Positions 2,247-26,130 of a DNA stretch of 64,000 bases are shown piece by piece (within the stretch, counting starts at the first letter, position 1; each line of letters begins with the position of its first letter). The notes below the pieces were generated by a model. It ran no database searches, was not told the DNA's origin, and saw only the letters and a program-made list of their open reading frames with translations. The DNA is from Planctomycetota bacterium (lineage in GTDB: Bacteria; Planctomycetota; Phycisphaerae; UBA1845; UTPLA1): contig JAATGM010000059.1 in assembly GCA_015654675.1 (NCBI GenBank), positions 124,001-188,000 of the forward strand. The letters run 5' to 3'. The translations under genes were made by a program, and so were the position numbers.

Positions 2247-3338
2247 TTATGCCTTCGATAGATCAGAGTGTAGCAGCCGATGAAACAGATGTTCACCCGC
2301 CTCGCGCCGCACGCTCAATCGGCCGGTGTTGTACGCCCGCGAACCAAGCCCGCGCTGCACGGACTCGCACACACCAATATCTTCCTGCTGAATTCGCTCC
2401 GATACGGCGATGCTCCGTTCCCGCTCCGTCACAGAGTCGGCGAAATAAAAGTCGAATATTACCCGGCAACGATCGACGCCCAGCGGCAGCACCAGATTGC
2501 TGTCCATGATCCCCTCATACCAGTTCACCATGAAGTTTGGATAGAGCCAGTAATAGTGCGCCATTGCCCCGCCCCGAACCGACGCGGTCTCGGCCTCTCC
2601 GCCGCTCGAATCAAGCGGGCTCGATTGCACGCAGCATCGCCCGAAATTCTCAATCGTGTACGCCGAATAATCGAGAACGCTGCCCAGCCCCTGATGGATA
2701 TGCGGAACGTGATACCCGCCGTCGAGATAATTATCGACGAACACCTTCCAGTTGCAGTTCAGGTCATACGTCCGACGATCGACAAACTTCATTGTCCCAA
2801 GTCCGAGCGGCGCCACGCGCATCGGCAGCTCACCCAGAAAATCCGCCAGTTCGCCGGCGTTGGAATCGAGGCAGACAAAGACAAAGTGCTCCCAAACCCC
2901 AACGCGCACCGGCACAAGCCCGCTCTTCGACTTATCAAAATCACAAACCCCGTCAAACTCCGGCACACCCTTAAGCTCTCCATCGAGCCCATACGTCCAC
3001 CCGTGATACGGACATTTGAGCGCCGTCGCCCGCCCGGCCGGTTCCGTGCAAACCGCCGCCGCGTGATGCCGACAAACATTGAAAAATGCGCGCAGCAACC
3101 CGTCCCGCCCGCGAACAACCACGATCGGCTCGCCCGCCACTTCGGCAGTCAGATACTGCCCCGCATCGCGAACCTGATCCACGCGCCCGACGACCACCCA
3201 GTTCCCGCCAAACACGGTTTGCCGCTCGTGGAAGTAAACTCCCTCATCGAAGTACCAGCTCGCCGGAATCGTCTCAGCCAATGCGAGCGGCCGATTCGGA
3301 TCGTACTGCCGAACGAGCTCTGCAACCCATCGTGTCAT
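2247..3338 (-). CDS. Rieske [2Fe-2S] ring-hydroxylating oxygenase, alpha-subunit type
   Basis: Aromatic-ring-hydroxylase family oxygenase of 363 residues. The Rieske cluster ligands are Cys89-x-His91 and Cys109-x2-His112 (CRHH and CPYHGW). The mononuclear iron site is NWKVFVDNYLDGGYHVPHIH, giving His210 and His215. The close spacing of these motifs and the single-gene arrangement resemble the GbcA/carnitine-type oxygenases rather than two-component naphthalene dioxygenases. No reductase or ferredoxin gene is adjacent except the downstream flavin reductase (12 bp away). Substrate cannot be read from sequence. Confidence 0.93.
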   Translation of the reverse strand: MTRWVAELVRQYDPNRPLALAETIPASWYFDEGVYFHERQTVFGGNWVVVGRVDQVRDAGQYLTAEVAGEPIVVVRGRDGLLRAFFNVCRHHAAAVCTEPAGRATALKCPYHGWTYGLDGELKGVPEFDGVCDFDKSKSGLVPVRVGVWEHFVFVCLDSNAGELADFLGELPMRVAPLGLGTMKFVDRRTYDLNCNWKVFVDNYLDGGYHVPHIHQGLGSVLDYSAYTIENFGRCCVQSSPLDSSGGEAETASVRGGAMAHYYWLYPNFMVNWYEGIMDSNLVLPLGVDRCRVIFDFYFADSVTERERSIAVSERIQQEDIGVCESVQRGLGSRAYNTGRLSVRREAGEHLFHRLLHSDLSKA

Positions 3339-3500
3339 GCGTTCTCCCGTCCGATTCGCCGCATCATGCAGTCGCCGAACGCCGCTGCCAATTTCACGCT
3401 CGAACTCGAAAATAAGTGAGCAGCCTGTATGTGCATAACAATAGAAATATCCAGAGATTACGTCTCGGCTGGCTCTGCGGCCTGAAAAATCCTTGCGGAA

Positions 3501-3538
3501 TTACTATGAACATAGTAAGATTCCGACGTTCATAGTAA
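3501..3538. promoter_or_regulatory. Operator-like palindrome upstream of the BlaI-type repressor
   Basis: TTACTATG-AA-CATAGTAA at 3501-3518 is a perfect 8-bp inverted repeat with a 2-bp centre. A second copy of the half-site CATAGTAA sits at 3531-3538, 13 bp before the repressor start. BlaI/MecI dimers bind short dyads of this kind in their own promoter, so autoregulation is the natural reading. A weak -35/-10 pair (TTGCGG 3493-3498, TAAGAT 3516-3521) would place the palindrome inside the promoter. The dyad is seen; the binding is inferred. Confidence 0.7.
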
Positions 3539-3551
3539 CCAGAGGTGTTAC

Positions 3552-3983
3552 ATGGGAAAGCCAGTCCCCCACATCACGTCAGCCGAGCTCAATGTGCTCA
3601 AAGTCCTATGGAAAAGTAGCGCCGCCACCGTCCGCGACGTAAAGGACGCCCTCGCTTCCGAATCCGCCGAGCCGCTCGCCTACACCACCGTGATGACCCT
3701 CATGAACCAGCTAGCCGCAAAGGGCGCGCTGGAAGTCGACCGCTCACGCCAGCCCTTCATCTACAAACCGGCCGTCCGGCGCGAACAGGTCCTCGCCCAG
3801 CGCCTCAAGCAATTCGTTCATAGCGTCTTCGACGGCCAGGCCGGCGAACTCGTTCTCCGCCTCGTCGACGAGGCCGAAATCTCCTCCGAAGACCTCAAAA
3901 AAATCGAACAACGTATCGAACAGCGCGAGCGCGATGAATCGACATCCCCGCGCAAGCCCGGATCGAAAGGAGGTCGCCCATGA
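3552..3983 (+). CDS. BlaI/MecI-family transcriptional repressor
   Basis: A 143-residue winged-helix repressor. The N-terminal half (residues 8-75: AELNVLKVLWKS, VRDVKDAL, YTTVMTLMNQLAAKGAL) is the BlaI/MecI DNA-binding domain, including the TTVMTLMNQL recognition helix. The C-terminal half is the dimerisation region that BlaR1-type proteases cut. A ribosome-binding site AGAGGTG lies at 3541-3547. The stop overlaps the start of the M56 peptidase gene by 4 bp (ATGA), the standard repressor-sensor arrangement. It probably represses its own operon through the dyad at 3501-3538. The target in this organism is unlikely to be a beta-lactamase, since none is nearby. Confidence 0.95.
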   Translation: MGKPVPHITSAELNVLKVLWKSSAATVRDVKDALASESAEPLAYTTVMTLMNQLAAKGALEVDRSRQPFIYKPAVRREQVLAQRLKQFVHSVFDGQAGELVLRLVDEAEISSEDLKKIEQRIEQRERDESTSPRKPGSKGGRP

Positions 3984-5998
3984 ACGCCCTCATCACCGAT
4001 CCTCGCTTCGAATCCCTCACGACCGCCGTCCTCGGCTGGGTCGGAAACGCCGTCCTCTTCGGCACAGCGCTGGCCCTCGTCACCTGGCTCATCCTGAAAC
4101 TCGTCGGCCGTCGCCTCCATCCGGCCTTGCACGGCCTCTTCTGGATGATCGTCCTCGTCAAGTTCCTCCTCCCCGTCGGCCCGTCCTGGTCCTACTCGCT
4201 TTCATCCGGTGTCCGCGCCCTCTCGCGATCATGGGCCGCCATAGCGCCCAGTTCACCAGCCCGCGTAGCCCCTGATGCGGGTGCCACCGATGTTCTGATC
4301 GTCAACGAGGTCAATCGAACTGCATCGTCGGCGGCTTCCTCCACTCCGTCGGCTCCGCCAAGAATCCCGCTCGCCGCGATCATCGCAGCCGTCTATTGCA
4401 TTGGCGCATCCATCGTCCTCGGCCTTCGCCTCGCCGCCTACCTCCGATTCGCACAGCATTGCCATAAGCTGCCGCATGCCGATGCCGCGACCCGCGCCGC
4501 CGTCGAAGCCGCCTGTCAGCGGCTCGGCGTACGCCGAGCCCCCGACGTCCGCGTCAGTGAAGACTCGCCCGCACCATTCATCTTCGGATTCGCCCGCCCC
4601 GTACTCGTCCTCTCGCGGCGCCATCTGCAAAACGCCGAAGAGCTCGAAGCCGTCATCCTTCACGAAATCGCCCACCTCCGCCGAGGCGATCTGTTCGTCC
4701 GCTACCTCCAGTGGTCGGCGGGAACTCTGCTGTTTTTCTGGCCGGTCGTGGCTTGGGTCAACCGGCGCATCGACCTGGCGCGTGAGCACGCATGTGACGA
4801 ATGGGCCCTTCGTCACGGGCGGCTGACAGCCGGGGCGTACGCCCGTTGCCTCCTCGACGCGGTGCATTCGGCTAGCGCGCGCCGTTTCACCTACCGTCCC
4901 GCCGCCATGGCCGCCAATGTCTTTACTGTCAAAAGGAGAATTGAAATGATTTTGGAATCCACACCCAGCCGCAATCGCGCGGCCTTCGGTATCCCGTCCC
5001 TCATTGCCGCATTGGCGTGGTCAAGCTTCGCCCTCTCGGGCTTTGCCGCCGCTGGCGACCCGGCGCCGTCCGCCGGTGAACCCCTGCAGAAGAAGGTCGT
5101 GGTCGTCACTGCTAACGGCGATCCGGACAACGTCGAAGTCCAGGTCAACAACGCCGACGGCGACAAGCCCTGCGTCTGGTTCGACAAAAAGACCGGCGCG
5201 GGCGAAGCCATGAAGGTACACATGGCCCGCTTCGGCATCCCGAGCGAGAAAGAGCTCACCGCCTTCCTGGCCGCCCATCCGACCGCCGACGCCAACGCCG
5301 ACGGCAAGCTTTCGATCAGCGAGCGAAACGCATTTCTGGTCGCAATCGCGATGAGCAACACGGCCGGCGTCCTCCAGCAGTTCCCCGACGCCGATCTCGA
5401 TGGCAACGGCACGCTCGAAGCCAATGAGGCCGGTCAGCTCGTCGGCGGCGGCATGTTCATTCGCCGCGTCGAAGGCGAGAACCCCGGCGAAACCCGCGAA
5501 AACGTGATGATGTATCGCGTCGCCGTTCGGACCGGCGGCACGCCTGCCAAAGACGCCCCGAAAATGCCGACCACCAGCCCGCGTGAGGCCGCGACCTGGC
5601 TCGTCGACAATGCCAAGGCCGAGCCGACCGCTGCCGAAGTTGCCCAGTTCGTCGTCGTGGTTGAGCAGGCCCCCTTCGCACAGATTCTGAAGGATCACCC
5701 GGAAGCCGACACCGATGGCGACGGCAAGCTCTCCCCCGCCGAGCACGAGGCCCTCATGGCCACTGAGCAGGCCCACGTGGGCAAGATCCTCTTCAAGCAT
5801 TTCCCGGAAGCCGACACGAACGGCGACGGCATCATCAGCCGCGAAGAAATGCGAAACCTGAAGGGCAGTCGCAAGATCGTCCTGAAGACCTCGAACGGCG
5901 GCACAACCACCGACGAGAAGGTCCAGGTCAACGGCGACCAGCAGGAGCATGAGGTAATCATCCTCCGCGACGACGCTGGCGATTCGAACGAAAAGTAA
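3980..5998 (+). CDS. M56 (BlaR1/MecR1-like) membrane metallopeptidase with four EF-hand loops
   Basis: A 672-residue sensor-protease partner of the BlaI-type repressor. Residues 1-340 are the M56 domain: membrane segments near 15-38, 47-70 and 130-155, the zinc motif HEIAH at 228-232, and a further hydrophobic segment near 250 and 335-355. The rest is extracytoplasmic. Instead of the penicillin-binding domain of BlaR1 it carries DxDxDG-type calcium loops beginning at residues 437, 472, 577 and 612 (for example DTDGDGKLS and DTNGDGIIS), each followed by an acidic residue at the loop end. This suggests a sensor whose ligand is calcium or a calcium-dependent partner. Domain reading is firm; the sensing role is inference. 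Confidence 0.93.
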   Translation: MNALITDPRFESLTTAVLGWVGNAVLFGTALALVTWLILKLVGRRLHPALHGLFWMIVLVKFLLPVGPSWSYSLSSGVRALSRSWAAIAPSSPARVAPDAGATDVLIVNEVNRTASSAASSTPSAPPRIPLAAIIAAVYCIGASIVLGLRLAAYLRFAQHCHKLPHADAATRAAVEAACQRLGVRRAPDVRVSEDSPAPFIFGFARPVLVLSRRHLQNAEELEAVILHEIAHLRRGDLFVRYLQWSAGTLLFFWPVVAWVNRRIDLAREHACDEWALRHGRLTAGAYARCLLDAVHSASARRFTYRPAAMAANVFTVKRRIEMILESTPSRNRAAFGIPSLIAALAWSSFALSGFAAAGDPAPSAGEPLQKKVVVVTANGDPDNVEVQVNNADGDKPCVWFDKKTGAGEAMKVHMARFGIPSEKELTAFLAAHPTADANADGKLSISERNAFLVAIAMSNTAGVLQQFPDADLDGNGTLEANEAGQLVGGGMFIRRVEGENPGETRENVMMYRVAVRTGGTPAKDAPKMPTTSPREAATWLVDNAKAEPTAAEVAQFVVVVEQAPFAQILKDHPEADTDGDGKLSPAEHEALMATEQAHVGKILFKHFPEADTNGDGIISREEMRNLKGSRKIVLKTSNGGTTTDEKVQVNGDQQEHEVIILRDDAGDSNEK

Positions 5999-6044
5999 CC
6001 AATCCGACCAGAGCGGATCGACCGCTTCGATCCCCCAAAAAAAC

Positions 6045-6087
6045 AGAAGCCCCGCCGGCATACCGCTGGCGGGGCTTCTCTATTTTT
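6045..6087. terminator. Bidirectional Rho-independent terminator
   Basis: A perfect 12-bp stem, AGAAGCCCCGCC at 6045-6056 with GGCGGGGCTTCT at 6068-6079, closes an 11-nt loop. It is followed by a T-rich tract (CTATTTTT, 6080-6087) and preceded by an A-tract (6037-6043), so it can end transcription from both sides: the M56 gene on the plus strand and the VOC gene on the minus strand. Confidence 0.92.
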
Positions 6088-6104
6088 CCAGCTTCGCGAT
6101 CTCG

Positions 6105-6428
6105 TCAGAGCGACGACGCGTCCATGATCTCGACCGAATTCCCGGCCGGGTCGTCCACATACACCGACCGCGTCCCATCGCGATGCGGCTTCAGCGTCCC
6201 GAACTCTGCCGCTCGTTCGCTGCTGAATCCAATGTGCGGCGGATGCTGCTCAGGAATGACCAAGGCAAGACTGATGTTCGCAAACTTAAGCAGCGCCCAC
6301 GTCTCATCGCGATAAGCAATCTCGCATCGGAATGTCTTCGTATACCATTCCACCGCCGCTCCGACGTCCTTGACTGCAATCGCCACGTGGTGAATCGTGT
6401 CCAGTTCGTTCTGAGTTTGAGTCTTCAT
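6105..6428 (-). CDS. Glyoxalase/bleomycin-resistance (VOC) family protein
   Basis: A 107-residue single VOC domain. HHVAIAVKDVGAAVEWY opens the first beta-alpha-beta module and DDPAGNSVEIMD closes the last; candidate metal ligands are the N-terminal His, the His of PPHIGF and the Glu of NSVEI. I chose ATG 6428, which has GCGAGG upstream; a TTG at 6470 would only add an unrelated basic leader. Members of this family act as lyases, isomerases, dioxygenases or binding proteins, and the sequence does not say which. The gene ends at the shared terminator at 6045-6079. Confidence 0.9.
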   Translation of the reverse strand: MKTQTQNELDTIHHVAIAVKDVGAAVEWYTKTFRCEIAYRDETWALLKFANISLALVIPEQHPPHIGFSSERAAEFGTLKPHRDGTRSVYVDDPAGNSVEIMDASSL

Positions 6429-6575
6429 TTCAACGGCCTCGCTTCGCCCGACGGAGCGACCGATCGCCAACCGAGAATGGCCGATCGCCCGTCGAGACGC
6501 TGCCCCGACAAGTCTGAATCTTGGATTATTAACGGGAATGGGCTGGGTTCAAGTCGCCGCGATACGCGAAAATCG

Positions 6576-7154
6576 CTATGCCTCGGCCCCGAGTGCCTGC
6601 TCAACAGCCGCCAGCAGGGCCGCGGCGTCGATGGGCTTGCTCAGACATCCGACGAACCCCTCGTCCAGAAGCTTTTGTCGCTCGCCGTCGCGAATGCTCC
6701 CGGTCAGCGCGATCACGCCCCGAATCGCCATCTCCGCGTGCTCGCGCATCGCACGAAACAGGTCCCGTGCCGCGAAGCCCGGCAGATCGACATCAACCAG
6801 CATCACGCGTGGCCGAAACAACGCCGACAGCAGCGCCGCGTCAAAAAGCGAATTCGCCGTCCGAACCTCGAACGTCACGTCTTCCGCCAGCGCCGCTTGA
6901 ATCAGACACCCGATTTCCGCGTCCTGCTCAGCCACCAGAACGCGAACCACGCCTTCCTCTAATCCGTTCAGCGGAATGCTGTGCGCCCGCATGAACCGGA
7001 TCAGGTGCTCGATCGGAACGCGCCGATCCCGGCTCCCCGGAATGCGATAGCCCCGAAGCTGTCCCGTATCGAACCACTTCGAAACCGTGCGCGGTGCGAC
7101 ACTGCAGATCTTCGCGATCTCTCCCGTCGTCAGTACTGATTTGTGGCGAGGCAT
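6576..7154 (-). CDS. Regulator with N-terminal HTH (excisionase/MerR-like) and C-terminal receiver domain
   Basis: A 192-residue protein with an uncommon domain order. Residues 6-56 form a helix-turn-helix of the excisionase/HTH_17 type (LTTGEIAKICSVAPRTVSKW, then RGYRIPGSRDRRV). Residues 70-190 form a response-regulator receiver domain: acidic pocket E76/D78, phosphoacceptor Asp121 in LVDVDLPG, Thr151 and Lys173 in LSKPI. Phosphorylation of the receiver would presumably modulate DNA binding. No histidine kinase is adjacent, so the partner is unknown. Typical response regulators put the receiver first; here the DNA-binding domain leads. Confidence 0.9.
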   Translation of the reverse strand: MPRHKSVLTTGEIAKICSVAPRTVSKWFDTGQLRGYRIPGSRDRRVPIEHLIRFMRAHSIPLNGLEEGVVRVLVAEQDAEIGCLIQAALAEDVTFEVRTANSLFDAALLSALFRPRVMLVDVDLPGFAARDLFRAMREHAEMAIRGVIALTGSIRDGERQKLLDEGFVGCLSKPIDAAALLAAVEQALGAEA

Positions 7155-7319
7155 ATAGCCGATTCCAATCGCTCACGGGCAGCCATCAGATGATATGGCC
7201 GTCAAAGACCGCGAATCCGGTCTATCCGGTTCTTCGGTTCACCTGAGACTGACATGAGAAAAATCACGCCTCGGCACTGGACTACGTGCCATTGCGGATC
7301 AAAAATGAAGATTCGGACG

Positions 7320-7955
7320 CTACGCGTCCTCGGCCTCTTCCCCGGGGGCTAGAATATTGCTGACCGGCCCCGACCGTCGCAGCCCTTCAAGCTGATACCA
7401 CAGACCGGCAGCGAGCAATCCATACGCCGCAACCGTCCGCACGATCCAGGCCGTCTTTCGCTGCCCCAGTGTTACCTCGTCCGAGAACCCCCGCGCTACC
7501 GTCAGGTTCGCCGTCCCGCTCCGCGCAGCCCAGCGACAATATCCAATCACACCCCCCGGCCGATATCGCTCGCCGAGCATCGTCTCGAACGCCGCGGTCG
7601 CATCCAGACCCACCACGCGCGCCGAATCGCCGCGTCGAACCGCATCCATACGCCCTTCGGCGAAACGAGGCGGCGATCCGATTTCGTCCGCGCGGTATCT
7701 GTATTCAAAATACAGTCCGAACGCCGTCCCCACGATCGACAACAAGGCGACGCCGAACCACACCCGTCCGCGGCTCACCGGACGCATCGAGCGCGCCATT
7801 CGAAACGGCCCCGCCCCCGCCAGCATCCCGCCGATGATGAAAAAAAACACCCCGAAATACGCCGGAATCCAGATCACCCGCGCCAGAAGCCAGACCAAGG
7901 GAACGATCACCAGCACCCCGACCCCCAGCGCCGCGTTCCACCGACCATTAAGCAT
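7320..7955 (-). CDS. Hypothetical integral membrane protein
   Basis: A 211-residue protein, not recognised. Hydrophobic segments lie near residues 7-26, 29-48, 62-82 and 175-192, with a soluble stretch of about 90 residues between the third and fourth. I chose ATG 7955 (MLNGRWN...); the frame opens further up to an ATG at 8036, but that start would interlock with the start codon of the divergent gene at 8035 and adds a non-hydrophobic basic leader. No conserved catalytic motif is apparent. Confidence 0.75.
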   Translation of the reverse strand: MLNGRWNAALGVGVLVIVPLVWLLARVIWIPAYFGVFFFIIGGMLAGAGPFRMARSMRPVSRGRVWFGVALLSIVGTAFGLYFEYRYRADEIGSPPRFAEGRMDAVRRGDSARVVGLDATAAFETMLGERYRPGGVIGYCRWAARSGTANLTVARGFSDEVTLGQRKTAWIVRTVAAYGLLAAGLWYQLEGLRRSGPVSNILAPGEEAEDA

Positions 7956-8034
7956 GTGTCGGAAGCTATGGCACCGAACGTTCCCGTACAAGCGCCAAGT
8001 GGACCGGCCGCCCCCTCGCGAATACAGTAATACC

Positions 8035-9060
8035 ATGATCCGATCACTGTTTTTCTGGTTGTTCTCCGCAGCGTGCTGTCTTTCCGTCGCCTCCGGTCAG
8101 GTTTGGGCCGAGGGCGACGCGCCTTTGGACTCGCAGCCGGTAGTCATTCGGGCCGGCTGCCTCGCCCCCGGACTCGTCGCGACGTTTGACGTCACAGGCG
8201 AGCACGGCATGGAGCACGAACCCGAACAGCGCAACATCGCCGGCAAGGCCGTCGCCGTCGCGTTCAAAGACGGCGAAGGCGTGCAGCTCATCACCCTTTT
8301 CAAACCCGATGCCGCCGAAAAAGTTCTCATCGGCTGCCCGTTCTCATTCTTCCATATCTCCAAGGCCGGCGAGCTGAGTCCCGAGGGCGAATTCCGCATC
8401 GCATACGTCTGCCGCCTGCTCAACAATATTCTCATTCCACGCAACATCCTGAAGACCGAAGAGCGGCTCACCGACCTGCTCCAGGAAGTCCCCGTCATCG
8501 ACTCGTCGATCGCGGCCAATCTCAAAGTCCAGACCGTGCCCGATCGCAATGGCGCCGGCTGGGTCCGCACCGAGGCACTCGCACGCAACAGCGATTCTAA
8601 AATGCTCCCGCCCGGCCGATCGCAACTGGTCGAATGGACGGCCAAGTTCGACGTAGACGCCCGCAACCTGCTGACGCTCGGCGAGGTCCGCTACAAACTT
8701 CGCGTCTCCGATCAGGGCAACTCCATCATTGTCGTCAGCACGCGCGTGACACGTACCAATCTCTCCGAACTCACGTCCCCGCAGCTCGCCGCAGTCGAAA
8801 CCGACGCCCCGATCCTCAAGAGCATCGCCCGCGACTGGGTCAACGACCGGGCTCGCGCCATGAAAAGCGTCAACTTCCTGATCGAAAAATCAAAAAACTC
8901 GCCTTTCACGGACTATTATCCCTGGTTGAAGAAGCAGCTCGAGGAAGACATTCGCAAGATGGGCGAACGCGACAAGTGGCGCGAGCCGCGCGGCGGCCGG
9001 CTGCCCCCGGGAGGCGTCCCGGCGACCAGGCCCGCCCCGGTCCCGATTCCGTCGCACTGA
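8035..9060 (+). CDS. Hypothetical secreted protein
   Basis: A 341-residue protein of unknown function. It begins with a clear signal peptide (SLFFWLFSAACCLSVASG, cleavage near residue 24-27), so the start at ATG 8035 is preferred over the upstream open frame. The mature part is soluble with no recognisable domain, and the tail is proline-rich. It lies 5 bp upstream of larE and is probably co-transcribed, although a functional link is not evident. Confidence 0.8.
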   Translation: MIRSLFFWLFSAACCLSVASGQVWAEGDAPLDSQPVVIRAGCLAPGLVATFDVTGEHGMEHEPEQRNIAGKAVAVAFKDGEGVQLITLFKPDAAEKVLIGCPFSFFHISKAGELSPEGEFRIAYVCRLLNNILIPRNILKTEERLTDLLQEVPVIDSSIAANLKVQTVPDRNGAGWVRTEALARNSDSKMLPPGRSQLVEWTAKFDVDARNLLTLGEVRYKLRVSDQGNSIIVVSTRVTRTNLSELTSPQLAAVETDAPILKSIARDWVNDRARAMKSVNFLIEKSKNSPFTDYYPWLKKQLEEDIRKMGERDKWREPRGGRLPPGGVPATRPAPVPIPSH

Positions 9061-18941: not shown

Positions 18942-20242
18942 TGCACGCGATTCTCACAATGGCCTTGAAAGACCTCCGCCTCCTCTGGCGCGACCGCTTC
19001 GGCATGTTTTGGGTACTCGTATTCCCCCTGCTTCAAGCCCTCTTCTTCGGCGCTATCTTCCGCGGTGACGGCAAAGACACCGCAAAAATGACCATCGGCG
19101 TGGTGGATGAAGACCAGTCCCAATCTACCCAATCATTCATCAAACGCCTGCGCGATTCTTCCGCCCTCTCCGTAGAGCCCCCGCTGGACGCGAACGGAAA
19201 GCCCGCCACGCCCCTGACGCCCGACCAGGCCCGCGACATGGTCCGCACAGGCAATCTCGTAGCGTTCGTCATCGTGAAGAAAAACACGGACGAGAACGAA
19301 GGATTCACATTTGCCGAAATGCCCAAGCTAGAAGTGGGAATCGATCCGTCGCGCAAGGCCGAAGCCGGCTACTTGCAGGGCATCCTCACCGAGGCCAGCT
19401 TCAAGGGACTGCAGGACGCCTTCACCAATCCGGCCGGAATGCGGGAGCGCATCGAAAAGGCCAGCAAACAGCTCGATGTCGGCTCAGGCCTGTCCGCACC
19501 GCAGCGAATCGTCCTCAAAACGTTCTTCACTTCGCTCGACCAGTTCCTCGGATCGGTTGACCCCAAGGTCTATCACGAAGGCCCCCAAGCCATGGGCGGA
19601 GCAAACATCCAGTTGGTCGACATTACCCGCGAAAAGCACGGCACCGACAACTCCTTCGAAATCACTTTCCCCTCGGCCATGCTCTGGGGCGTCATCGGCT
19701 GCACCGCCGGCTTCGCCATCTCCCTCGTCACCGAGCGCCGCACCGGGACGCTTCTCCGCCTACGCGTCGCCCCGCTTCAGCGAACGCAAATCCTCGCCGG
19801 AAAAGCCCTCGCCTGCTTCCTCGCATGCTCAGGCGTCATCCTTCTGCTCCTCACCGTCGGACACTTCGTCTTCGGTGTTCGCACGACCCACCCCGCCCTG
19901 CTCGCCATGGCCATTTTCTCCACCGCCATTTGCTTCGTCGGACTGACGATGCTCTTCGCCACGATGGGCAGCACCGAACAAGGCGTCGCCGGCGTCGGCT
20001 GGGCCGTCATGCTCGTTTTCGCCATGATCGGCGGCGGAATGATCCCCCTGATCGCCATGCCTCAATGGATGACCGTCGCCAGCAACTTTAGTCCGGTCAA
20101 ATGGGGCATCTACTCGCTCGAAGGCGCGATCTGGCGCGGCTTCTCATTCGCCGAAATGCTGCAACCCTGCGGCATCCTTGTCGCCATCGGCGTTATCTGC
20201 TTCGCGATCGGCGTACAACTGATCAAACGCCGCGAGACGTGA
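18941..20242 (+). CDS. ABC-2 type transporter permease
   Basis: A 433-residue membrane subunit partnered with the ATPase immediately upstream. One membrane segment near residues 20-38 is followed by an extracytoplasmic domain of about 200 residues, then five or so segments between about 248 and 430 (SAMLWGVIGCTAGFAISLV, GVILLLLTVGHFVFGV, and others). This is the NatB/YhgE-like layout of ABC-2 exporters with a large outer loop between TM1 and TM2. The start overlaps the ATPase stop by 1 bp. Confidence 0.93.
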   Translation: MHAILTMALKDLRLLWRDRFGMFWVLVFPLLQALFFGAIFRGDGKDTAKMTIGVVDEDQSQSTQSFIKRLRDSSALSVEPPLDANGKPATPLTPDQARDMVRTGNLVAFVIVKKNTDENEGFTFAEMPKLEVGIDPSRKAEAGYLQGILTEASFKGLQDAFTNPAGMRERIEKASKQLDVGSGLSAPQRIVLKTFFTSLDQFLGSVDPKVYHEGPQAMGGANIQLVDITREKHGTDNSFEITFPSAMLWGVIGCTAGFAISLVTERRTGTLLRLRVAPLQRTQILAGKALACFLACSGVILLLLTVGHFVFGVRTTHPALLAMAIFSTAICFVGLTMLFATMGSTEQGVAGVGWAVMLVFAMIGGGMIPLIAMPQWMTVASNFSPVKWGIYSLEGAIWRGFSFAEMLQPCGILVAIGVICFAIGVQLIKRRET

Positions 20243-20275: not shown

Positions 20276-21145
20276 TCAAAGCCCGTAAGCGTAGAAAACC
20301 GCAGTGAAGATTACGTCCGTCGTGATCAGCGCAACGATCGACTTGATGACCGTGTTCGTCGTCGCCCGCCCGACCCCCTCCGCCCCACCGCTCACCGTCA
20401 GCCCCTCAAGACACGCAATGGTCGAAATCAGTACGCCAAACACGCACGCCTTGAACAGCCCGGTAAGAAAATCCCGATGCGAGATCGCCGCTTGCGTGTA
20501 CTGCAAATACTCGCTCGCCCCGATACCCAGCACCCCGGTGCCGGTAATCAGCCCACCCAGCACGCCGACCGTGTCCGCGATGACAGACAGCCCGGTCAGC
20601 ATGATTGCCGTGGCCACCACCCGCGACACCACCAGGAACCGCACCGGGTTCATGGCCATCGCCTTCATGGCCTTGATCTCTTCCCCCTCCACCATGGTTC
20701 CCAGCTCTGCCGCAATACTCGCCCCGGCAAACCCTGACAGCACCACTGCCGAGAGCAGCGGCCCAAGCTCGCGGAACATCGCGATCCCCACCACGTCCGC
20801 AACGCGCTGAAGCTGCCCATACGACTTCAGCGTCGGCGCCATCTGCAGCGCCAGAATAATTCCCACAAACGTCTGCACCAGCACGATGATCGGAATCGAC
20901 CGCACCCCCACCCGCACCATCTGCGACGCGACCACCGTCGCCCGAATCGGCGCCGTACGCACAATCAGCGCGCGCCACGTCCATGTCGCCGTGTCGCGCA
21001 ACAGCATCGCCAACTTGCCGACAAACGCCGCCGTGCCCCGCGCGCTGTCGACCAGCCCGTACGCCGCCAGCCCGACCGCCTCCGCGATCCGCCGCGGAAT
21101 GCTCGACCCTTTGGTCGTCTCGGGCGCCGGTGCCGTATCGCTCAT
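20276..21145 (-). CDS. mlaE: MlaE-family lipid ABC transporter permease
   Basis: A 289-residue inner-membrane permease of the Mla/Ttg2 family, which moves phospholipids between inner and outer membrane. Characteristic motifs are TFVGIILALQMAPTLKSYGQ, the conserved ELGPLLSAVVLSGFAGASIA region and EEIKAMKAMAMNPVRFLV. It is the last gene of the minus-strand operon 24758-20276 and its start overlaps the STAS gene by 4 bp, so permease and STAS protein are translationally coupled, as with MlaE and MlaB elsewhere. Confidence 0.94.
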   Translation of the reverse strand: MSDTAPAPETTKGSSIPRRIAEAVGLAAYGLVDSARGTAAFVGKLAMLLRDTATWTWRALIVRTAPIRATVVASQMVRVGVRSIPIIVLVQTFVGIILALQMAPTLKSYGQLQRVADVVGIAMFRELGPLLSAVVLSGFAGASIAAELGTMVEGEEIKAMKAMAMNPVRFLVVSRVVATAIMLTGLSVIADTVGVLGGLITGTGVLGIGASEYLQYTQAAISHRDFLTGLFKACVFGVLISTIACLEGLTVSGGAEGVGRATTNTVIKSIVALITTDVIFTAVFYAYGL

Positions 21146-21492
21146 CCGTTCAGCGCCTGTTCCTCGGTCAGATAAATGCTGAAGAACTTGTCCAGCTTCG
21201 TGATCTCAAACACGCTCTTGACCCGTGCCGAAAGATTCACGAGCGCCAGCTTCCCCTTGTACCCATTCACGCGCCGCAACAGCTCGACCAGCGTTCCAAC
21301 GCCCGACGAATCCATGTAACCCACGTCCGTCATGTTCAGCACCAGCCGTTTCGGCCGCCCGTTCGCGACGTCCACCAGCGCCGCATGCAGCGCCGGCGAT
21401 TGGTGCATGTCCACCTCTCCGGATAGCACCACCACCGTCGCGTCCGTTTCCTGCCGGACTTCCTTCACCAGTGTCGAGCCCTTGGCTGTCAT
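21142..21492 (-). CDS. STAS-domain protein (anti-sigma antagonist / MlaB-like)
   Basis: A 116-residue single STAS domain (VVVLSGEVDMHQSPALHAAL, then VLNMTDVGYMDSSGVGTL). DSSG at 61-64 holds the serine that partner kinases phosphorylate in SpoIIAA/RsbV-type proteins. The start is ATG 21492; a longer frame upstream lies inside the kinase gene. It overlaps the kinase gene by 4 bp on one side and the permease by 4 bp on the other. So it could be the MlaB-like cap of the ATPase, an anti-sigma antagonist, or both. Confidence 0.92.
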   Translation of the reverse strand: MTAKGSTLVKEVRQETDATVVVLSGEVDMHQSPALHAALVDVANGRPKRLVLNMTDVGYMDSSGVGTLVELLRRVNGYKGKLALVNLSARVKSVFEITKLDKFFSIYLTEEQALNG

Positions 21493-21935
21493 GTTGTCCT
21501 CGCCCCCGCGTCGCCCGGCTTCCGTGCGCCACCGTCGCGGTATTTCACCATCTCCAGATGCATTCCCCCGTCGATCGGGCACGAAAATTCAACCTTGTCC
21601 ATCACCGTCCGCATGATGTGCACCCCCAGGCCGCCCGGACGCACGTCATCCAGATCGCGTCCCTTGATCGTGTGCGGATCAACCTGTCGCCCATGGTCCC
21701 GAACCTCAACCCGGATCCCGCCCCGCCCGTCCGGCTCGTCGAACCCCTCCAGCTTGATGTGGATCGGCTTGTCGCACGGCCCGCCGTACCCATGCTTGAT
21801 CACATTCGCCAGCGCCTCGTCCACCGCCAGCGTGATCTTATGAATGTCTTCCGCCGCCATGCCCTCCAGCTCCGCCATGCGTGCCAGCGCGCTCCGAACC
21901 ACCGGCAGACTGTCCGTGCTGCCCGTGATCGTCAT
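21489..21935 (-). CDS. RsbW/SpoIIAB-like serine-protein kinase (HATPase_c)
   Basis: A 148-residue GHKL ATPase of the anti-sigma-factor type. The N box is DEALANVIKHGY, the G1 box DHGRQVD, the G2 box RPGGLGVHIMR. Such proteins bind a sigma factor or another target and phosphorylate a STAS antagonist. The start is ATG 21935 (GGAG 8 nt upstream) rather than TTG 21965. The stop overlaps the STAS start by 4 bp, so kinase and likely substrate are made together. No sigma factor gene is in the neighbourhood. Confidence 0.92.
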   Translation of the reverse strand: MTITGSTDSLPVVRSALARMAELEGMAAEDIHKITLAVDEALANVIKHGYGGPCDKPIHIKLEGFDEPDGRGGIRVEVRDHGRQVDPHTIKGRDLDDVRPGGLGVHIMRTVMDKVEFSCPIDGGMHLEMVKYRDGGARKPGDAGARTT

Positions 21936-21990
21936 GTCGACGCTCCGCTGATGATGTTCGTGCAAGGAATTCGAAATGACTGGCTCCCGT

Positions 21991-22398
21991 CTACTCCGTC
22001 GGCCTCGATCCGTCGCCGTCCCGCGCCGCCCTCGATTCCTCCGCCGCCGGGCGGCTCGTCGCCCGCGCGAATGCTCCCGAATTCATCGCCTCGCGCCAAC
22101 GCTCGATCGCTTCGTGCCGCACAGCCAGCGAGCTGCCGTAATCATAACCCATCCGAGTCCCCGTGATCCGTTCAAGCGCCAGGATCGCGTAAAATCGAAC
22201 CGCGTCGTCCTCGTCGCTCAGTCGGTCCACCAGCAGCGGCACCGCCGACTGATCCCGCGCGCTCCCCGCTGCACGGATCGCCATAATGCGAACATCCGGC
22301 TCGGCCGACTGGATGCCGACTCGCGCCCCCTGCTCGCCGCAGCCGCCCAATCCGACCGCCACAGCCGCCAACATCAGCCGTCGACGCAATTCGCGCAT
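21991..22398 (-). CDS. Small lipoprotein with a HEAT-like repeat
   Basis: A 135-residue lipoprotein of unknown function. The N-terminus is a type II signal (RRRLMLAAVAVGLGGC; lipobox LGGC). Residues about 38-85 form a HEAT/PBS-like helical pair (VPLLVDRLSDEDDAVRFYAI, then LALERITG). The tail is rich in Arg, Ala, Asp and Glu. The start at ATG 22398 gives the lipobox; the frame is open further upstream but without signal-like sequence. It sits between the MCE gene (113 bp) and the kinase gene (55 bp) in the Mla operon. Confidence 0.83.
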   Translation of the reverse strand: MRELRRRLMLAAVAVGLGGCGEQGARVGIQSAEPDVRIMAIRAAGSARDQSAVPLLVDRLSDEDDAVRFYAILALERITGTRMGYDYGSSLAVRHEAIERWREAMNSGAFARATSRPAAEESRAARDGDGSRPTE

Positions 22399-22511
22399 GC
22401 ACCTCGCAGGTCCTGATCGCCGGCCGGCATCCTCCGCTCGAACCTCCACCCTCTCATTGTAACCGGCGCGAGCCCCCGGGCCACCAAGCCGCGCAACCCC
22501 GTGCGGCCGCT

Positions 22512-23870
22512 CTAGTGCTTCACGTCCAGGGCGCGCCACAGTGAAGATTCCGCCTGCTTGAACTTGGCAAACGTTGCCTCGATTTCCGTTCGGATTTTGG
22601 GTAATTCAGGGTTGTCCGCCGCAATTTGCCCGTTGTTCATGTCCGCTAATGACTTCAACTGCGAAGTCGCGTCATCCAGACTCTGGGCCGCCTCCGCGAA
22701 ACTCCGCGCCGCGTCAAAGATCGCCTGCTGCTTCGAGGCCGTCGCGCTCGGTTCCCGGAATATCACCCACGGGTGCGCCGCCACATACCGCGCCGCCCCC
22801 TTGATCTGCTCTGAAACCTGCCGGAAATTCAGCAGGATCGTGTTGACGTTGTCCTTGTTATAGACAACCACCTCGCGCGTCGTCCCCGTCACGACCGTGA
22901 TGTCCTTCAGCGCCTTGTTCAGGTCATCCATGGCGACGTTGACCTTCGCCACAATGCCTGACGCGTTCCGCGTGTCTACCTGGTCCGCGATTGACTCAAC
23001 TACCCGAGTATCCAGCTTTGCCGAAGTAGACTCCAGGTGCTTCACGATCTGGTTGATCGGCACCTTATTTTCTTCCAGGATCGTTGCCGCCGTCTGTAGA
23101 CCGCCATTCAGCGTGTCCAGCGCCTTATGCACCTTCCCCATCACCACATCCGGCCGGCCTGCATCAAACTGCGTCCGCAGACTCCCCGTCGTCGCGTTGA
23201 TTTCATCCAGCGTGCGCTCCAGTTTCGCCATCAGCGATCGCTTCTGCTCCGGATCAAGCTGCAACGCGGCACTCCGCGTCACGGCGTTCAAGTCGTCCAT
23301 CGAAAGCTGAAGCTTCGCCATCACCGTCCCTTGCTTGTCCGCCATCAACTGATACTTGATCAATCCCAGCATCGAATGCGGATTGTTCGCGTCCAATTCC
23401 CGCCCCAGGTTGTCAAGATAAGCGTTGAATCCGCCGGGCGATGCCCCATTTAACACCCGCGTCAGGTCCGCGTCCGCAGCGCTCGACCCCACATCCACGA
23501 GCAGCGTCCCGTTCCCGCCCAAAACCTCCCCAACCGCCCTGATCTGGCAATCCTTCTTCAGTTCAACCGCCTTCTCCATCTTCGCGGAAACAACCAGATA
23601 CAGATCTGTCCCGCGCGACGCCTGCTCAGGATCGATCGCCATCTCCTCCAGCTTGATGTCCGTCACCTTCCCCACCGGCCGCCCCGCCACCAGCACCTTG
23701 CTGTCCTTGATCAGTGTCGGAAGCGCCCATTCCTGCGGAAACCGCACCTTGAATGTCTGCATGGGCCCGCTCCCGAGCGAGTTCGGCAGCCACAGCAGAA
23801 TTCCGAAAAACAGCAGGAAGATGACGATCAGCGTCGTCCCCAGCTTTACCGCGTTGCGTTCAGCCGGCAT
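22512..23870 (-). CDS. mlaD: MlaD-like MCE-domain lipid transport protein
   Basis: A 452-residue membrane-anchored MCE protein. An N-terminal segment (LIVIFLLFFGILLWLP, residues about 12-28) anchors it, and the MCE domain covers about residues 36-131 (KDSKVLVAGRPVGKVTDIKL is the hallmark). The remaining ~320 residues are alpha-helical with heptad-like patterns, much longer than E. coli MlaD (about 183 residues), so a helical needle or barrel spanning the periplasm is possible. It lies 6 bp after the ATPase gene. MCE proteins ferry lipid between membranes. Confidence 0.94.
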   Translation of the reverse strand: MPAERNAVKLGTTLIVIFLLFFGILLWLPNSLGSGPMQTFKVRFPQEWALPTLIKDSKVLVAGRPVGKVTDIKLEEMAIDPEQASRGTDLYLVVSAKMEKAVELKKDCQIRAVGEVLGGNGTLLVDVGSSAADADLTRVLNGASPGGFNAYLDNLGRELDANNPHSMLGLIKYQLMADKQGTVMAKLQLSMDDLNAVTRSAALQLDPEQKRSLMAKLERTLDEINATTGSLRTQFDAGRPDVVMGKVHKALDTLNGGLQTAATILEENKVPINQIVKHLESTSAKLDTRVVESIADQVDTRNASGIVAKVNVAMDDLNKALKDITVVTGTTREVVVYNKDNVNTILLNFRQVSEQIKGAARYVAAHPWVIFREPSATASKQQAIFDAARSFAEAAQSLDDATSQLKSLADMNNGQIAADNPELPKIRTEIEATFAKFKQAESSLWRALDVKH

Positions 23871-23876
23871 TCGGCG

Positions 23877-24758
23877 TCACTCCTTCTCGGGTACGAGCAG
23901 TTTCTCGTACTCGCTCAATCCCTCGGTGTCCGTCAGCGGTCCCGACGAGTGCCCGTTCAGAAATTGATTGATCAGCTTTTCTTCGCGCGATTTCAGCGTC
24001 TTCGGATCGGCCTTCCGTAGATCATCGAACTCATCCCGCGTCCCGATCTTCAAAACTCGCCCGCGCTCCAGCATGACCATTCGGTCCGCTATTCGAAACG
24101 CCGAGTCCATCTCGTGCGTCACCACGATGCTCGTCACGCTCAATTTCTTCGACAGATCGATGATCAGCTCATCAATGGCCGCCGAAGTCACCGGGTCAAG
24201 CCCCGCCGACGGCTCGTCATAAAACAGAATCTCCGGGTCCATCACCGTCGCCCGCGCCAGTGCCGCCCGCTTCTTCTGCCCGCCGGACAGCATCCCCGGC
24301 ATCTTCTCGCGGTGCGGCAGCATGTGCACCTGCTGAAGCTTCAGCGTCACGACGATATCGATAATCGTGTCGCCCACGTCGCTGTGCTCCTGCAGCGGCA
24401 GCGCCACGTTCTCCGCCACCGACAGCGAGTTAAACAGCGCTCCGCTCTGAAACAGAATCCCGAATTTGAGCCGAATGTCGTTCAGCTCATCCTCCCCCAT
24501 CCCGACGATATTGCGCGCTCCCTCCATGTCCTTCGTCCGGTACCGAATCTCGCCCTCGTTGACGCTGTATTCCCCGATCATGCAATTCAGCAGCGTCGAC
24601 TTCCCGCAACCCGACCCCCCCATCACGACCAAAGTCTCGCCCCGGTGAATATCAAACTGAATCCCGTCCAGAACCGCGATCCGCGAACCGTCCCGCGCCT
24701 CGAAGTACTTCCGAAGATTCACAATGGAGATGACAACGTCGTCGGCCGCCAAACGCAC
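23877..24758 (-). CDS. mlaF: MlaF-like ATP-binding protein of the lipid transporter
   Basis: A 293-residue ATPase of the Mla complex. Walker A is GGSGCGKST (47-55), the MlaF-type LFQSGALFNSLSVAENVALP follows, the signature is LSGGQ (157-161) and Walker B is ILFYDEPSAGLDP (D181 E182). The GTG at 24758 is the likely start; it gives MRLAADDVVISIVNLRKYF. It heads the minus-strand operon whose order is ATPase, MCE protein, lipoprotein, kinase, STAS, permease. Confidence 0.94.
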   Translation of the reverse strand: MRLAADDVVISIVNLRKYFEARDGSRIAVLDGIQFDIHRGETLVVMGGSGCGKSTLLNCMIGEYSVNEGEIRYRTKDMEGARNIVGMGEDELNDIRLKFGILFQSGALFNSLSVAENVALPLQEHSDVGDTIIDIVVTLKLQQVHMLPHREKMPGMLSGGQKKRAALARATVMDPEILFYDEPSAGLDPVTSAAIDELIIDLSKKLSVTSIVVTHEMDSAFRIADRMVMLERGRVLKIGTRDEFDDLRKADPKTLKSREEKLINQFLNGHSSGPLTDTEGLSEYEKLLVPEKE

Positions 24759-25155: not shown

Positions 25156-26130
25156 ATGCGAGTCCTCTCAGGCATCCAATCCTCAGGCAAGCTCCACCTT
25201 GGCAACTACTTCGGAGCCATGAAGCAGCACATCGACGACCAGCACCGCCACGAGTCCTTCATCTTCATCGCCAACTTCCACGCCCTCACCACCGTTCAGG
25301 ATGGCCCGCGCCTCCGCGACCTCACCCGCGACGTCGCCCTCGACTACCTCGCTCTCGGCCTCGACCCCAACAAGGCCCTCCTCTTCCGCCAGTCCGACGT
25401 GCCCGAGGTCACCGAACTCGCCTGGATCCTCTCCACCGTCACCGGCATGGGCCTCCTCGAACGCGCCCACTCCTACAAGGACAAGGTCGCCAAGGGCATC
25501 GCCGCCTCCGTCGGCCTCTTCACCTACCCCATCCTCATGGCCGCCGACATCCTGATCTACCGCTCCAACCTAGTCCCCGTCGGCAAGGATCAGGTCCAGC
25601 ACATCGAAATGACCCAGGACATGGCCGGCTACTTCAACAACACCTACGGCCGCGAAGTCTTCGTACGCCCCGAAGCCAAGCTCAACGAAGCCGCCGTCGT
25701 CCCCGGCGTCGACGGCCAGAAGATGTCCAAGAGCTACGGCAACACCGTCGAGCTGTTCGAAGACGCCAAATCGGCCCGCAAGAAAATCATGTCCATCAAG
25801 ACCGACAGCACGCCGGTCGATCAACCCAAAGATCCGTCCACCGACAACGTTTTCGCGCTTCTAAAACTCATCGCCCCGCCCGAGGAAGTAGCCGAGTGGG
25901 ACCGCCGCTATCGCGCCCCCGGCATGGGCTACGGCGACGCCAAGAAGCGCCTCGCCGAACTTTTCGAAGCAAAGTTCGGCCCCGCCCGCGAAAAACGCAT
26001 CTCGCTCGAAAAAGACCCAGACTATGTTGAGGATGTGCTGAAGACAAACGGCCGCAAAGCCCACGCAGAAGCCGAAAAGACCATGCAAGCCGTCCGCGAG
26101 GCGTGTGGCATCGTCGTATCCAGCGACTAG
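25156..26130 (+). CDS. trpS: Tryptophanyl-tRNA synthetase
   Basis: Charges tRNA-Trp with tryptophan in the cytoplasm. 324 residues, normal length for bacterial TrpS. The class I HIGH-type motif is in SSGKLHLGNYFGA near the N-terminus, tryptophan-site motifs include TYPILMAADILIY and GKDQVQHIEM, and the KMSKS loop is at 189-193. AAAGG precedes ATG 25156. The gene is monocistronic by position (divergent from the mlaF-like gene, convergent with a methyltransferase). Confidence 0.97.
   Translation: MRVLSGIQSSGKLHLGNYFGAMKQHIDDQHRHESFIFIANFHALTTVQDGPRLRDLTRDVALDYLALGLDPNKALLFRQSDVPEVTELAWILSTVTGMGLLERAHSYKDKVAKGIAASVGLFTYPILMAADILIYRSNLVPVGKDQVQHIEMTQDMAGYFNNTYGREVFVRPEAKLNEAAVVPGVDGQKMSKSYGNTVELFEDAKSARKKIMSIKTDSTPVDQPKDPSTDNVFALLKLIAPPEEVAEWDRRYRAPGMGYGDAKKRLAELFEAKFGPAREKRISLEKDPDYVEDVLKTNGRKAHAEAEKTMQAVREACGIVVSSD

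Follow-up and report, generated by a model that had tools for sequence, protein, structure and literature searches.

The operon described here lies on the minus strand of a 64,000-nucleotide stretch of a Planctomycetota genome (assembly GCA_015654675.1, contig JAATGM010000059.1, positions 124,001 to 188,000), which we call the window and whose positions are used throughout. Read along the minus strand, the operon encodes an MlaF-like ABC ATPase (293 amino acids, GTG start; 23877..24758; Pfam ABC_tran, 2.9e-30), an MCE (MlaD-like) protein (452 amino acids; 22512..23870; MlaD match below the cut-off), a HEAT-repeat lipoprotein with the lipobox LGGC (21991..22398; HEAT_2, 2.1e-11), an RsbW/SpoIIAB-like GHKL serine kinase (21489..21965; HATPase_c_2, 4.2e-25), a STAS protein of 116 amino acids in the place of MlaB (21142..21492; STAS, 1.9e-23, and STAS_2, 3.2e-15) and an MlaE permease (289 amino acids; 20276..21145; MlaE, 2.7e-65). 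A sequence-only reading of the window had claimed this six-gene order as well as two 4-bp overlaps joining kinase, STAS and permease. Both claims were borne out: all six genes were in place with Pfam matches, the MCE gene being the weakest call of the operon, and the overlaps, read directly in the sequence, are both ATGA (kinase/STAS at 21489-21492 and STAS/permease at 21142-21145).

The best NCBIfam match of the ATPase was MlaF (PRK11831, 5.5e-49; 166.9 bits, not reaching the equivalog cut-off of 441), and its closest PDB sequence was Pseudomonas aeruginosa MlaF (7ch8, 2.6e-47). Escherichia coli MlaF (6xbd) matched at 8.4e-42, its residues 5-263 aligning with residues 9-286 of the window ATPase, and the alignment takes in the C-terminal QFLNG..GP tail. 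We considered whether this tail marks binding of STAS and dropped the idea because the QF..G...GP pattern also occurs in STAS-less systems: it was present in the MlaF proteins of 23/49 kinase-linked, 0/29 fused-STAS, 11/32 STAS-less and 1/2 kinase-less separate-STAS systems. Since the tail is not STAS specific, it was not counted as evidence for docking. The permease scored 220.4 bits against PF02405 (cut-off, 22.5) and narrowly missed the cut-off of NCBIfam TIGR00056 (210.2 versus 212.2 bits). The MCE protein reached 19.9 bits against an MlaD cut-off of 25.1 and also had a weak NCBIfam match, below the cut-off, to Mtu_fam_mce; among 10 relatives in the MCE position, 4 were over the MlaD cut-off, 3 were under it, 2 had no match and 1 had another weak Mce match.

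The start of the kinase gene is uncertain (TTG at 21965 or ATG at 21935). Numbered from the TTG, the N box (21804..21818, minus strand) contains Glu50 (codon 21818-21816) and Asn54 (codon 21806-21804), which, by SpoIIAB, we take to be the catalytic base and the Mg ligand, respectively. Both residues were invariant in a 14-sequence alignment (A1) and present in 101 of 101 MlaE-linked kinases; the G2-box glycines were kept in 101/101 of these kinases and the G1 Asp in 98/101. The best PDB match of the kinase family profile was RsbW (6m36, 2.9e-24). The STAS protein exceeded the cut-offs of both STAS (PF01740) and STAS_2 (PF13466), and a DSSG motif can be read in its sequence, the first Ser of which, Ser62 (codon at 21307..21309, minus strand), is presumably the equivalent of the SpoIIAA/RsbV phospho-serine and corresponds to Thr52 of E. 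coli MlaB. Its PDB relatives were SpoIIAA/RsbV-type antagonists, and MlaB was absent from its PDB matches at an E value of 0.01. Judged by sequence, the operon fulfills the membership criteria of an MlaF-type ATPase, an MlaE-family permease, a GHKL serine kinase whose N box and G boxes are intact, and a STAS antagonist with a phosphorylatable Ser/Thr site, phosphorylation itself being inferred. For the read-through kinase and STAS chain of a relative (L140), AlphaFold gave a model with a pLDDT of 93.4 and a pTM of 0.88, the halves of which resemble in fold the respective chains of the SpoIIAB:SpoIIAA and RsbW:RsbV cocrystals. The kinase and STAS of this relative are confidently joined in the predicted structure, which was judged by pLDDT, pTM and fold matches only.

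All 98 kinase-linked separate STAS proteins carried Ser or Thr at the phospho-site, whereas in kinase-less STAS-MlaE fusions this position was Ser or Thr in 12/30 and Gly in 17/30. The raw Fisher value for the association of kinase with Ser/Thr, kinship ignored, was 2e-14. This contrast is confounded, since kinase-linked versus kinase-less also means separate versus fused STAS. In a phylogeny-aware test, the permease tree showed only 4 changes of kinase status; the 3 to 4 independent pairs that these provide cannot yield significance, and we therefore did not take the Fisher value as proof. Ser was also kept in all 3 separate STAS proteins without an adjacent same-strand kinase (L115, L116 and L122), and E. 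coli MlaB has Thr52 and, to our knowledge, no kinase, so the residue may serve other reasons. The accessible portions of PMC7367683 and PMC5016091 indicate that Thr52 maps to the STAS phospho-site.

Across 199 Planctomycetota genomes, kinase, STAS and MlaE were encoded in one operon in at least 29; the three genes were contiguous in 27 (15 family codes) and within the same operon in 2 more. Of the top 23 kinase matches in these genomes, 21, including that of the window, lay directly upstream of STAS-MlaE, and the remaining 2 were G071, where the genes share the operon but are ordered differently, and G147, whose contig ends just after STAS. This conservation excludes a chance arrangement. In a set of named genomes, from which the 80 best kinase relatives were kept using a query that favors this kinase group, STAS lay downstream of the kinase in 77/80 loci and MlaE in 72/80; in 8/80, the available sequence showed no MlaE gene within 1.5 kb. 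A relative of the HEAT lipoprotein gene was found directly 5' of the kinase in 48/80 named loci, and a lipobox pattern was present in 51 of 71 kinase-linked copies. Where an ATPase gene is near, the order in most other loci is kinase-STAS-MlaE-ATPase; among the 48 Planctomycetota-labelled loci, 38 had no ATPase within 4.5 kb downstream, partly owing to contig ends. Synteny had been proposed as a check on the arrangement, with an order not conserved outside this genome as its refutation. The kinase-STAS-MlaE block passed, being kept in other families and phyla, but the order with ATPase and MCE first recurred, among the relatives' loci compared, only in the nearest relative, L139.

A SpoIIE-type phosphatase gene was located directly upstream of the kinase in 22/80 named loci, none of them labelled Planctomycetota; 21 of the 22 had STAS next, and 20 of those 21 had MlaE. 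According to record titles, these loci span KSB1, Calditrichota, Nitrospinota, Nitrospirota, Desulfobacterota, Alphaproteobacteria and Gammaproteobacteria. Fusions were observed in both orders, GAF-SpoIIE-kinase (L195 and L200) and kinase-GAF-SpoIIE (L120 and L121), and a further SpoIIE-kinase fusion (L210) is cut at the contig start. The operonic or fused phosphatase of relatives strengthens the idea of a phospho-switch. A SpoIIE profile found no phosphatase gene in the window, which speaks against such a switch here, although the genome as a whole contains 15 SpoIIE-type candidates.

Partner switching by RsbV-RsbW-RsbU and SpoIIAA-SpoIIAB-SpoIIE controls sigma B and sigma F, respectively. 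The window operon shares with these systems a DSSG STAS protein, a GHKL serine kinase and the same folds, to which relatives add a SpoIIE-family GAF-PP2C phosphatase, but it differs in that the window has no sigma factor match and the conserved neighbor is an ABC lipid transporter. With E. coli MlaFEDB it has in common an MlaE permease, a probable MCE protein, an MlaF-type ATPase with a QFL(D/N)G..GP tail and one STAS subunit with Ser/Thr at the SpoIIAA phospho-site; unlike that system, it has a dedicated RsbW-like kinase, a SpoIIAA/RsbV-like STAS and a HEAT lipoprotein. As far as the accessible parts of PMC5016091 and PMC7367683 go, both propose phosphorylation of MlaB as a possible means of regulation, the latter calls the regulation of active MlaB an open question, and no demonstrated phosphorylation of MlaB is reported. 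In Bordetella, the RsbU/V/W-like proteins BtrU/V/W form a partner switch that acts on type III secretion, an output other than, or in addition to, a sigma factor (from the portions of the review PMC8256260 that were available); here, the inferred output differs in being the ATPase of an MCE transporter, and the STAS protein occupies the position of an established subunit of the transporter.

We consider it likely that the operon encodes an Mla-type lipid ABC transporter under reversible serine phosphorylation of STAS, that is, partner switching with a transporter rather than a sigma factor as the output. What we observed is the gene content and order, the motifs, the deep conservation, the phosphatase linkage in relatives and the predicted kinase-STAS unit of one relative. 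The earlier proposal that lipid transport is switched by STAS phosphorylation through the co-encoded kinase gained support from the conserved block and the phosphatase linkage, with phosphorylation, docking and sign remaining inferences. The RsbW-like kinase would phosphorylate Ser62, a step for which there is no biochemistry, and a SpoIIE-type PP2C phosphatase would strip the phosphate from STAS, acting in trans in the case of the window operon and perhaps drawn from the 15 candidates. Unphosphorylated STAS would sit on the MlaF-like ATPase, as E. coli MlaB does, and permit assembly and ATP hydrolysis, a docking that is inferred without a model. Phospho-STAS would be unable to dock and transport would be off, although the sign is likewise an inference, and transport would resume when the phosphatase, probably via its GAF sensor domain, answers a putative signal. 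Which lipid the transporter moves is likewise a matter of inference. On this mechanism, the kinase probably shuts transport down through phosphorylation of the STAS subunit.

Because of the likeness to RsbV and RsbW, the operon was also considered as a sigma-control module. A profile of sigma-70 region 2, made from the genome's own factors and recovering 20/20 source loci, detected no sigma factor in the window and matched 2/80 named loci (L139 and L189) and 3/40 of the first regional loci (L091, L098 and L101), with sigma domains confirmed by Pfam in all five. Sigma linkage, as gene linkage only, was thus not met, and the operon was not filed as such a module. Kinase and STAS could still be an ordinary anti-sigma/anti-anti-sigma pair for a sigma factor elsewhere or, in relatives, nearby, with their place in the mla operon reflecting co-expression only. 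In sequence and fold the two proteins are closest to SpoIIAB/RsbW and SpoIIAA/RsbV, the 49 Sigma70_r2 matches in the genome mean that targets in trans exist, and in L139 an ECF-type sigma gene, together with archease and RtcB genes, lies between the MCE and lipoprotein genes. The L139 gene slightly lowered our confidence in the transporter switch and slightly raised that in a sigma target. However, the L139 factor shows regions 2 and 4 only and stands alongside archease and RtcB, the window's genome carries its RtcB gene on a different contig, and the association with MlaE persists from phylum to phylum; together with the rarity of linked sigma genes, this makes a sigma target improbable.

RsbW holds RsbV, and by this model the kinase could instead keep STAS off the ATPase, with phosphorylation mainly resetting or recycling the proteins and the sign possibly reversed. 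The confidently predicted kinase-STAS unit speaks for such sequestration. So does E. coli MlaB T52A, which abolishes ATPase activity without affecting assembly (available portions of PMC5016091), so that removing the hydroxyl does not just leave the system "always on." Yet the phosphomimetic T52E reduces MlaF binding in E. coli (available portions of PMC7367683), and a SpoIIE phosphatase kept in the operons of relatives argues that the phosphate state matters; we regard sequestration as unlikely. STAS might also be a fixed structural subunit like MlaB, with the kinase an evolutionary passenger or acting on another protein, as the kinase-less relatives with a separate STAS that keeps its Ser (G185/L115 and G064/L116) would allow. 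This is very hard to reconcile with the invariant N-box residues of the kinases, with the recurrence of phosphatase linkage and fusions and with a kinase linkage that holds over long evolutionary distances.

If the transporter switch is correct, partner switching is applied directly to an ABC transporter, which would show how the flow of lipids toward the outer membrane could be adjusted rapidly in diderm bacteria. In this operon family a single gene cluster holds a dedicated kinase, joined in relatives by a phosphatase with its sensor domain, and the question of MlaB-type regulation thereby becomes testable with small soluble proteins. No published description of the kinase-STAS-Mla arrangement and no paper pairing MlaE with RsbW or with SpoIIE was found in titles and the beginnings of abstracts, a coverage that left out many subscription journals and bioRxiv, and the main text of the partner-switch review PMC8256260 contains neither "Mla" nor "ABC transporter." We lean, by a little, toward the broader view that SpoIIE phosphatase-RsbW-like kinase-STAS cassettes in MCE operons of many phyla form a widespread, undescribed class of phospho-switched ABC transporters, with the ATPase replacing the sigma factor as partner; the switch would be ancestral, and lineages with STAS-MlaE fusions, in which the phospho-site is often Gly, would have lost it. 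In an alignment of STAS, permease and ATPase as one chain, the STAS and permease rows were only 8 to 21% identical to the first sequence and apparently misplaced. Among the loci checked, STAS, permease and ATPase were all in one frame only in L109.

On the minus strand, the six genes of the operon spanned 24758 to 20276 in the order proposed by the sequence-only reading (MlaF-like ATPase, MCE protein, HEAT-repeat lipoprotein, RsbW-like kinase, STAS protein, and MlaE permease), and the two 4-bp overlaps it had noted, one between kinase and STAS and one between STAS and permease, were confirmed, each being ATGA. All of the genes except the MCE gene scored above the Pfam cut-off. Among ten relatives of the MCE gene, four passed the MlaD cut-off, three matched MlaD below it, two matched no family, and one gave a weak match to another Mce model. 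Two plus-strand genes flanked the operon, an ABC-2 exporter gene ending at 20242 and a class I (W/Y) tRNA synthetase gene starting at 25156.

Searches of 199 phylum genomes gave matches to the kinase in 134 (at 1e-6) and to the permease in 196, and 40 regions were picked from these matches for comparison of gene order. The kinase-STAS-MlaE block was conserved in part of the phylum: the three genes directly adjoined one another in 27 genomes (26 besides the window's own), with 15 family codes among them. Genomes G071 and G107, of a sixteenth family code, also carried the kinase in the operon, with the genes arranged as permease ... ATPase-STAS-kinase, and overall the kinase shared an operon with STAS and MlaE in at least 29 of the 199 genomes. 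Twenty-one of the 23 top-scoring kinase matches lay directly upstream of STAS-MlaE; the other two were the rearranged operon of G071 and a contig (G147) that ended after STAS. Kinases with lower scores mostly did not adjoin MlaE. No same-strand kinase was found within 5 kb of MlaE in 60 further MlaE regions (59 down the permease score list and the second copy of the window's own genome), and one of these, in G068 (L292), had a kinase match about 3 kb from MlaE on the opposite strand. Three higher-scoring MlaE places (G169, G171, and G178) were left out of the 60, and their kinase matches were on other contigs. Two regions, L115 (G185; 302-1926) and L116 (G064; 5304-8978), had HEAT lipoprotein, STAS, and MlaE genes without a kinase between lipoprotein and STAS, while retaining the DSAG/DSSG motif, and are putative candidates for kinase loss.

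A scan of named genomes with an alignment of 14 kinase sequences (A1) retrieved 307 relatives, the best 80 of which were analyzed; their phylum assignments are the labels of the database records. STAS immediately followed the kinase in 77 of these best 80, MlaE was within 1.5 kb of it in 72, and an ATPase was within 4.5 kb downstream in 33. Because the query was made from mla-linked kinases, these fractions describe the behavior of this kinase group and not its frequency, and because some named loci duplicate phylum-sample genomes (the permeases of L098 and L189 were identical), the counts from the two samples are not fully independent. In the eight loci without MlaE nearby, the kinase stood alone (L176 and L213), with STAS and without MlaE (L199), with STAS and no MlaE in the stretch examined (L152, L182, and L193), in a SpoIIE-STAS-kinase-SpoIIE cluster without MlaE (L212), or about 4 kb from MlaE (L197). 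The permease of L198, labelled Cyanobacteria, was placed among Phycisphaerae MlaE in the permease tree, and this contig may be mislabelled or mis-binned.

All 101 kinases had the Glu and Asn of the N box and the three Gly residues of the G2 box, and 98 had the G1 Asp. The phospho-site of the STAS proteins (Ser62 in the window, the first Ser of DSSG) is at the position that we take to be that of SpoIIAA Ser58 and RsbV Ser56. Of the 98 kinase-linked separate STAS proteins, 94 carried Ser there and 4 carried Thr, and all three separate STAS proteins without an adjacent same-strand kinase carried Ser; the 30 kinase-less STAS-MlaE fusions had Gly (17), Ser (6), Thr (6), or Ala (1). A Fisher test of kinase against Ser/Thr at this site gave 2e-14, ignoring kinship. 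In a phylogeny-aware test, with four changes of kinase status on the permease tree, significance was unreachable; since there were only three to four independent pairs, the association is a pattern and not proof. In that tree (166 of 170 rows; SH-aLRT, quick method, midpoint root), kinase-linked sequences were spread over several branches, and the fused-STAS rows fell within a group of 39, and this whole group joined 18 further kinase-linked rows with a support of 90. This topology fits the loss of an older switch without showing it.

At 18 loci, kinase and STAS were in one frame with a stop codon alone between them. The read-through chain of L140 (275 residues, 92 alignment rows), the kinase of which is 59% identical to that of the window, was predicted with a pLDDT of 93.4 and a pTM of 0.88, which we took as confident mutual placement of kinase and STAS on the scores only, without coordinates or a control pair. 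With Foldseek and VIA-align, each half matched one of the two partner proteins in the SpoIIAB:SpoIIAA and RsbW:RsbV crystal structures (Z of about 17 to 19), and sequence searches agreed; the kinase-STAS unit itself remains a prediction. The alignment of the window ATPase with E. coli MlaF extended through the C-terminal tail, which was rejected as a mark of STAS, not being specific to STAS-bearing systems.

Directly upstream of the kinase, 22 of the 80 named loci had a SpoIIE-type phosphatase, 48 had a HEAT lipoprotein, and 10 had neither; the first two were never seen together there in these 80 loci. The phosphatase form occurred in KSB1, UBP3, Auribacterota, Calditrichota, Nitrospinota, Nitrospirota, Desulfobacterota, Rhodospirillales, and other Proteobacteria including Halorhodospira, in two unclassified bacteria, and in the Bacteroidota cluster lacking MlaE (L212). 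STAS was next to the kinase in 21 of the 22 phosphatase-form loci, 20 of which also had MlaE. Nine of ten upstream phosphatases scanned had a GAF domain ahead of SpoIIE, and in three of the ten (L195, L200, and L210) the SpoIIE protein ran on into the kinase domain as a fusion; L216 had phosphatase and kinase in a single open frame. Within the phylum sample, SpoIIE lay just upstream of the kinase in L107 and L112, and the operons of G071 (L120, 8478-10196) and G107 (L121, 2791-4539), with MlaE, ATPase, and STAS and, in L120, an MlaD match, encoded the reverse fusion, kinase-GAF-SpoIIE, a chain presumed to unite the kinase with its antagonist. Given this adjacency and these fusions in relatives, kinase, phosphatase, and STAS therefore travel together with the transporter. 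A two-STAS form of the switch may exist in L122 (G151), where about 3 kb separates a divergent SpoIIE-kinase-STAS group from an mla operon whose own STAS adjoins MlaE, and in G068, whose kinase match is at a similar distance from its MlaE. The short HEAT-repeat lipoprotein (21991-22398 in the window) holds the place of the SpoIIE phosphatase of other phyla, and a lipobox pattern fit 51 of 71 kinase-linked copies. In the window's lineage it is the lipoprotein that occupies that place, and any phosphatase for this STAS would need to work in trans.

We read the operon as encoding an MCE lipid ABC transporter whose STAS subunit would be reversibly phosphorylated by the co-encoded kinase; phosphorylation of Ser62, docking of STAS on the ATPase, and the sign of the effect are inferred. 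The on/off model is carried over from E. coli MlaB-MlaF. According to two papers, Thr52 of MlaB is near the center of the contact with MlaF, T52E weakens binding to MlaF, T52A abolishes ATPase activity, and isolation of the MlaF-MlaE complex requires MlaB (PMC7367683, PMC5016091). With the kinase active, STAS would be phosphorylated, the ATPase would not be held, and transport would be off; with the phosphatase active, STAS would be free, the transporter assembled, and transport on. Also inferred are the signal that the GAF domain senses, which lipid is moved, and in which direction. It was left open whether the kinase acts by sequestration of STAS, and whether a hydroxyl at the phospho-site is needed independently of phosphate. 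As for a sigma factor as the target of kinase and STAS, no sigma factor gene was found in the window, and two of the 80 named loci have one. These two include the nearest relative, L139, in which genes for an ECF-type sigma factor, archease, and the RNA ligase RtcB lie between the MCE and lipoprotein genes (2811-5550) and separate the ATPase-MCE part from the lipoprotein-kinase-STAS-MlaE part; in the window, in contrast, no gene lies between the MCE and lipoprotein genes, and the RtcB gene of the window's genome is on contig C48.

Each component of this proposed switch is already known; what is new is their combination, in which the probable output of partner switching is an ABC lipid transporter. 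The combination was not found described in the open-access literature searched, as judged from listings, and the main text of a review of STAS-only proteins (PMC8256260) contains neither 'Mla' nor 'ABC transporter'.

The window's own genome encodes a second MlaE, on contig C56; an ATPase of its own accompanies it, and neither STAS nor kinase was recognized beside it. This genome has 13 STAS matches and 13 HATPase_c_2 matches, of which two are strong kinases, that of the operon and one on contig C53 (22768-23902) with STAS genes on both sides. No MlaE was recognized within the 15 kb examined near the C53 kinase, which, judged by sequence, is with its STAS genes a separate RsbVW-like module. With 15 SpoIIE phosphatase and 49 Sigma70_r2 matches in 4.93 Mb as well, the genome is rich in signalling genes of this type.
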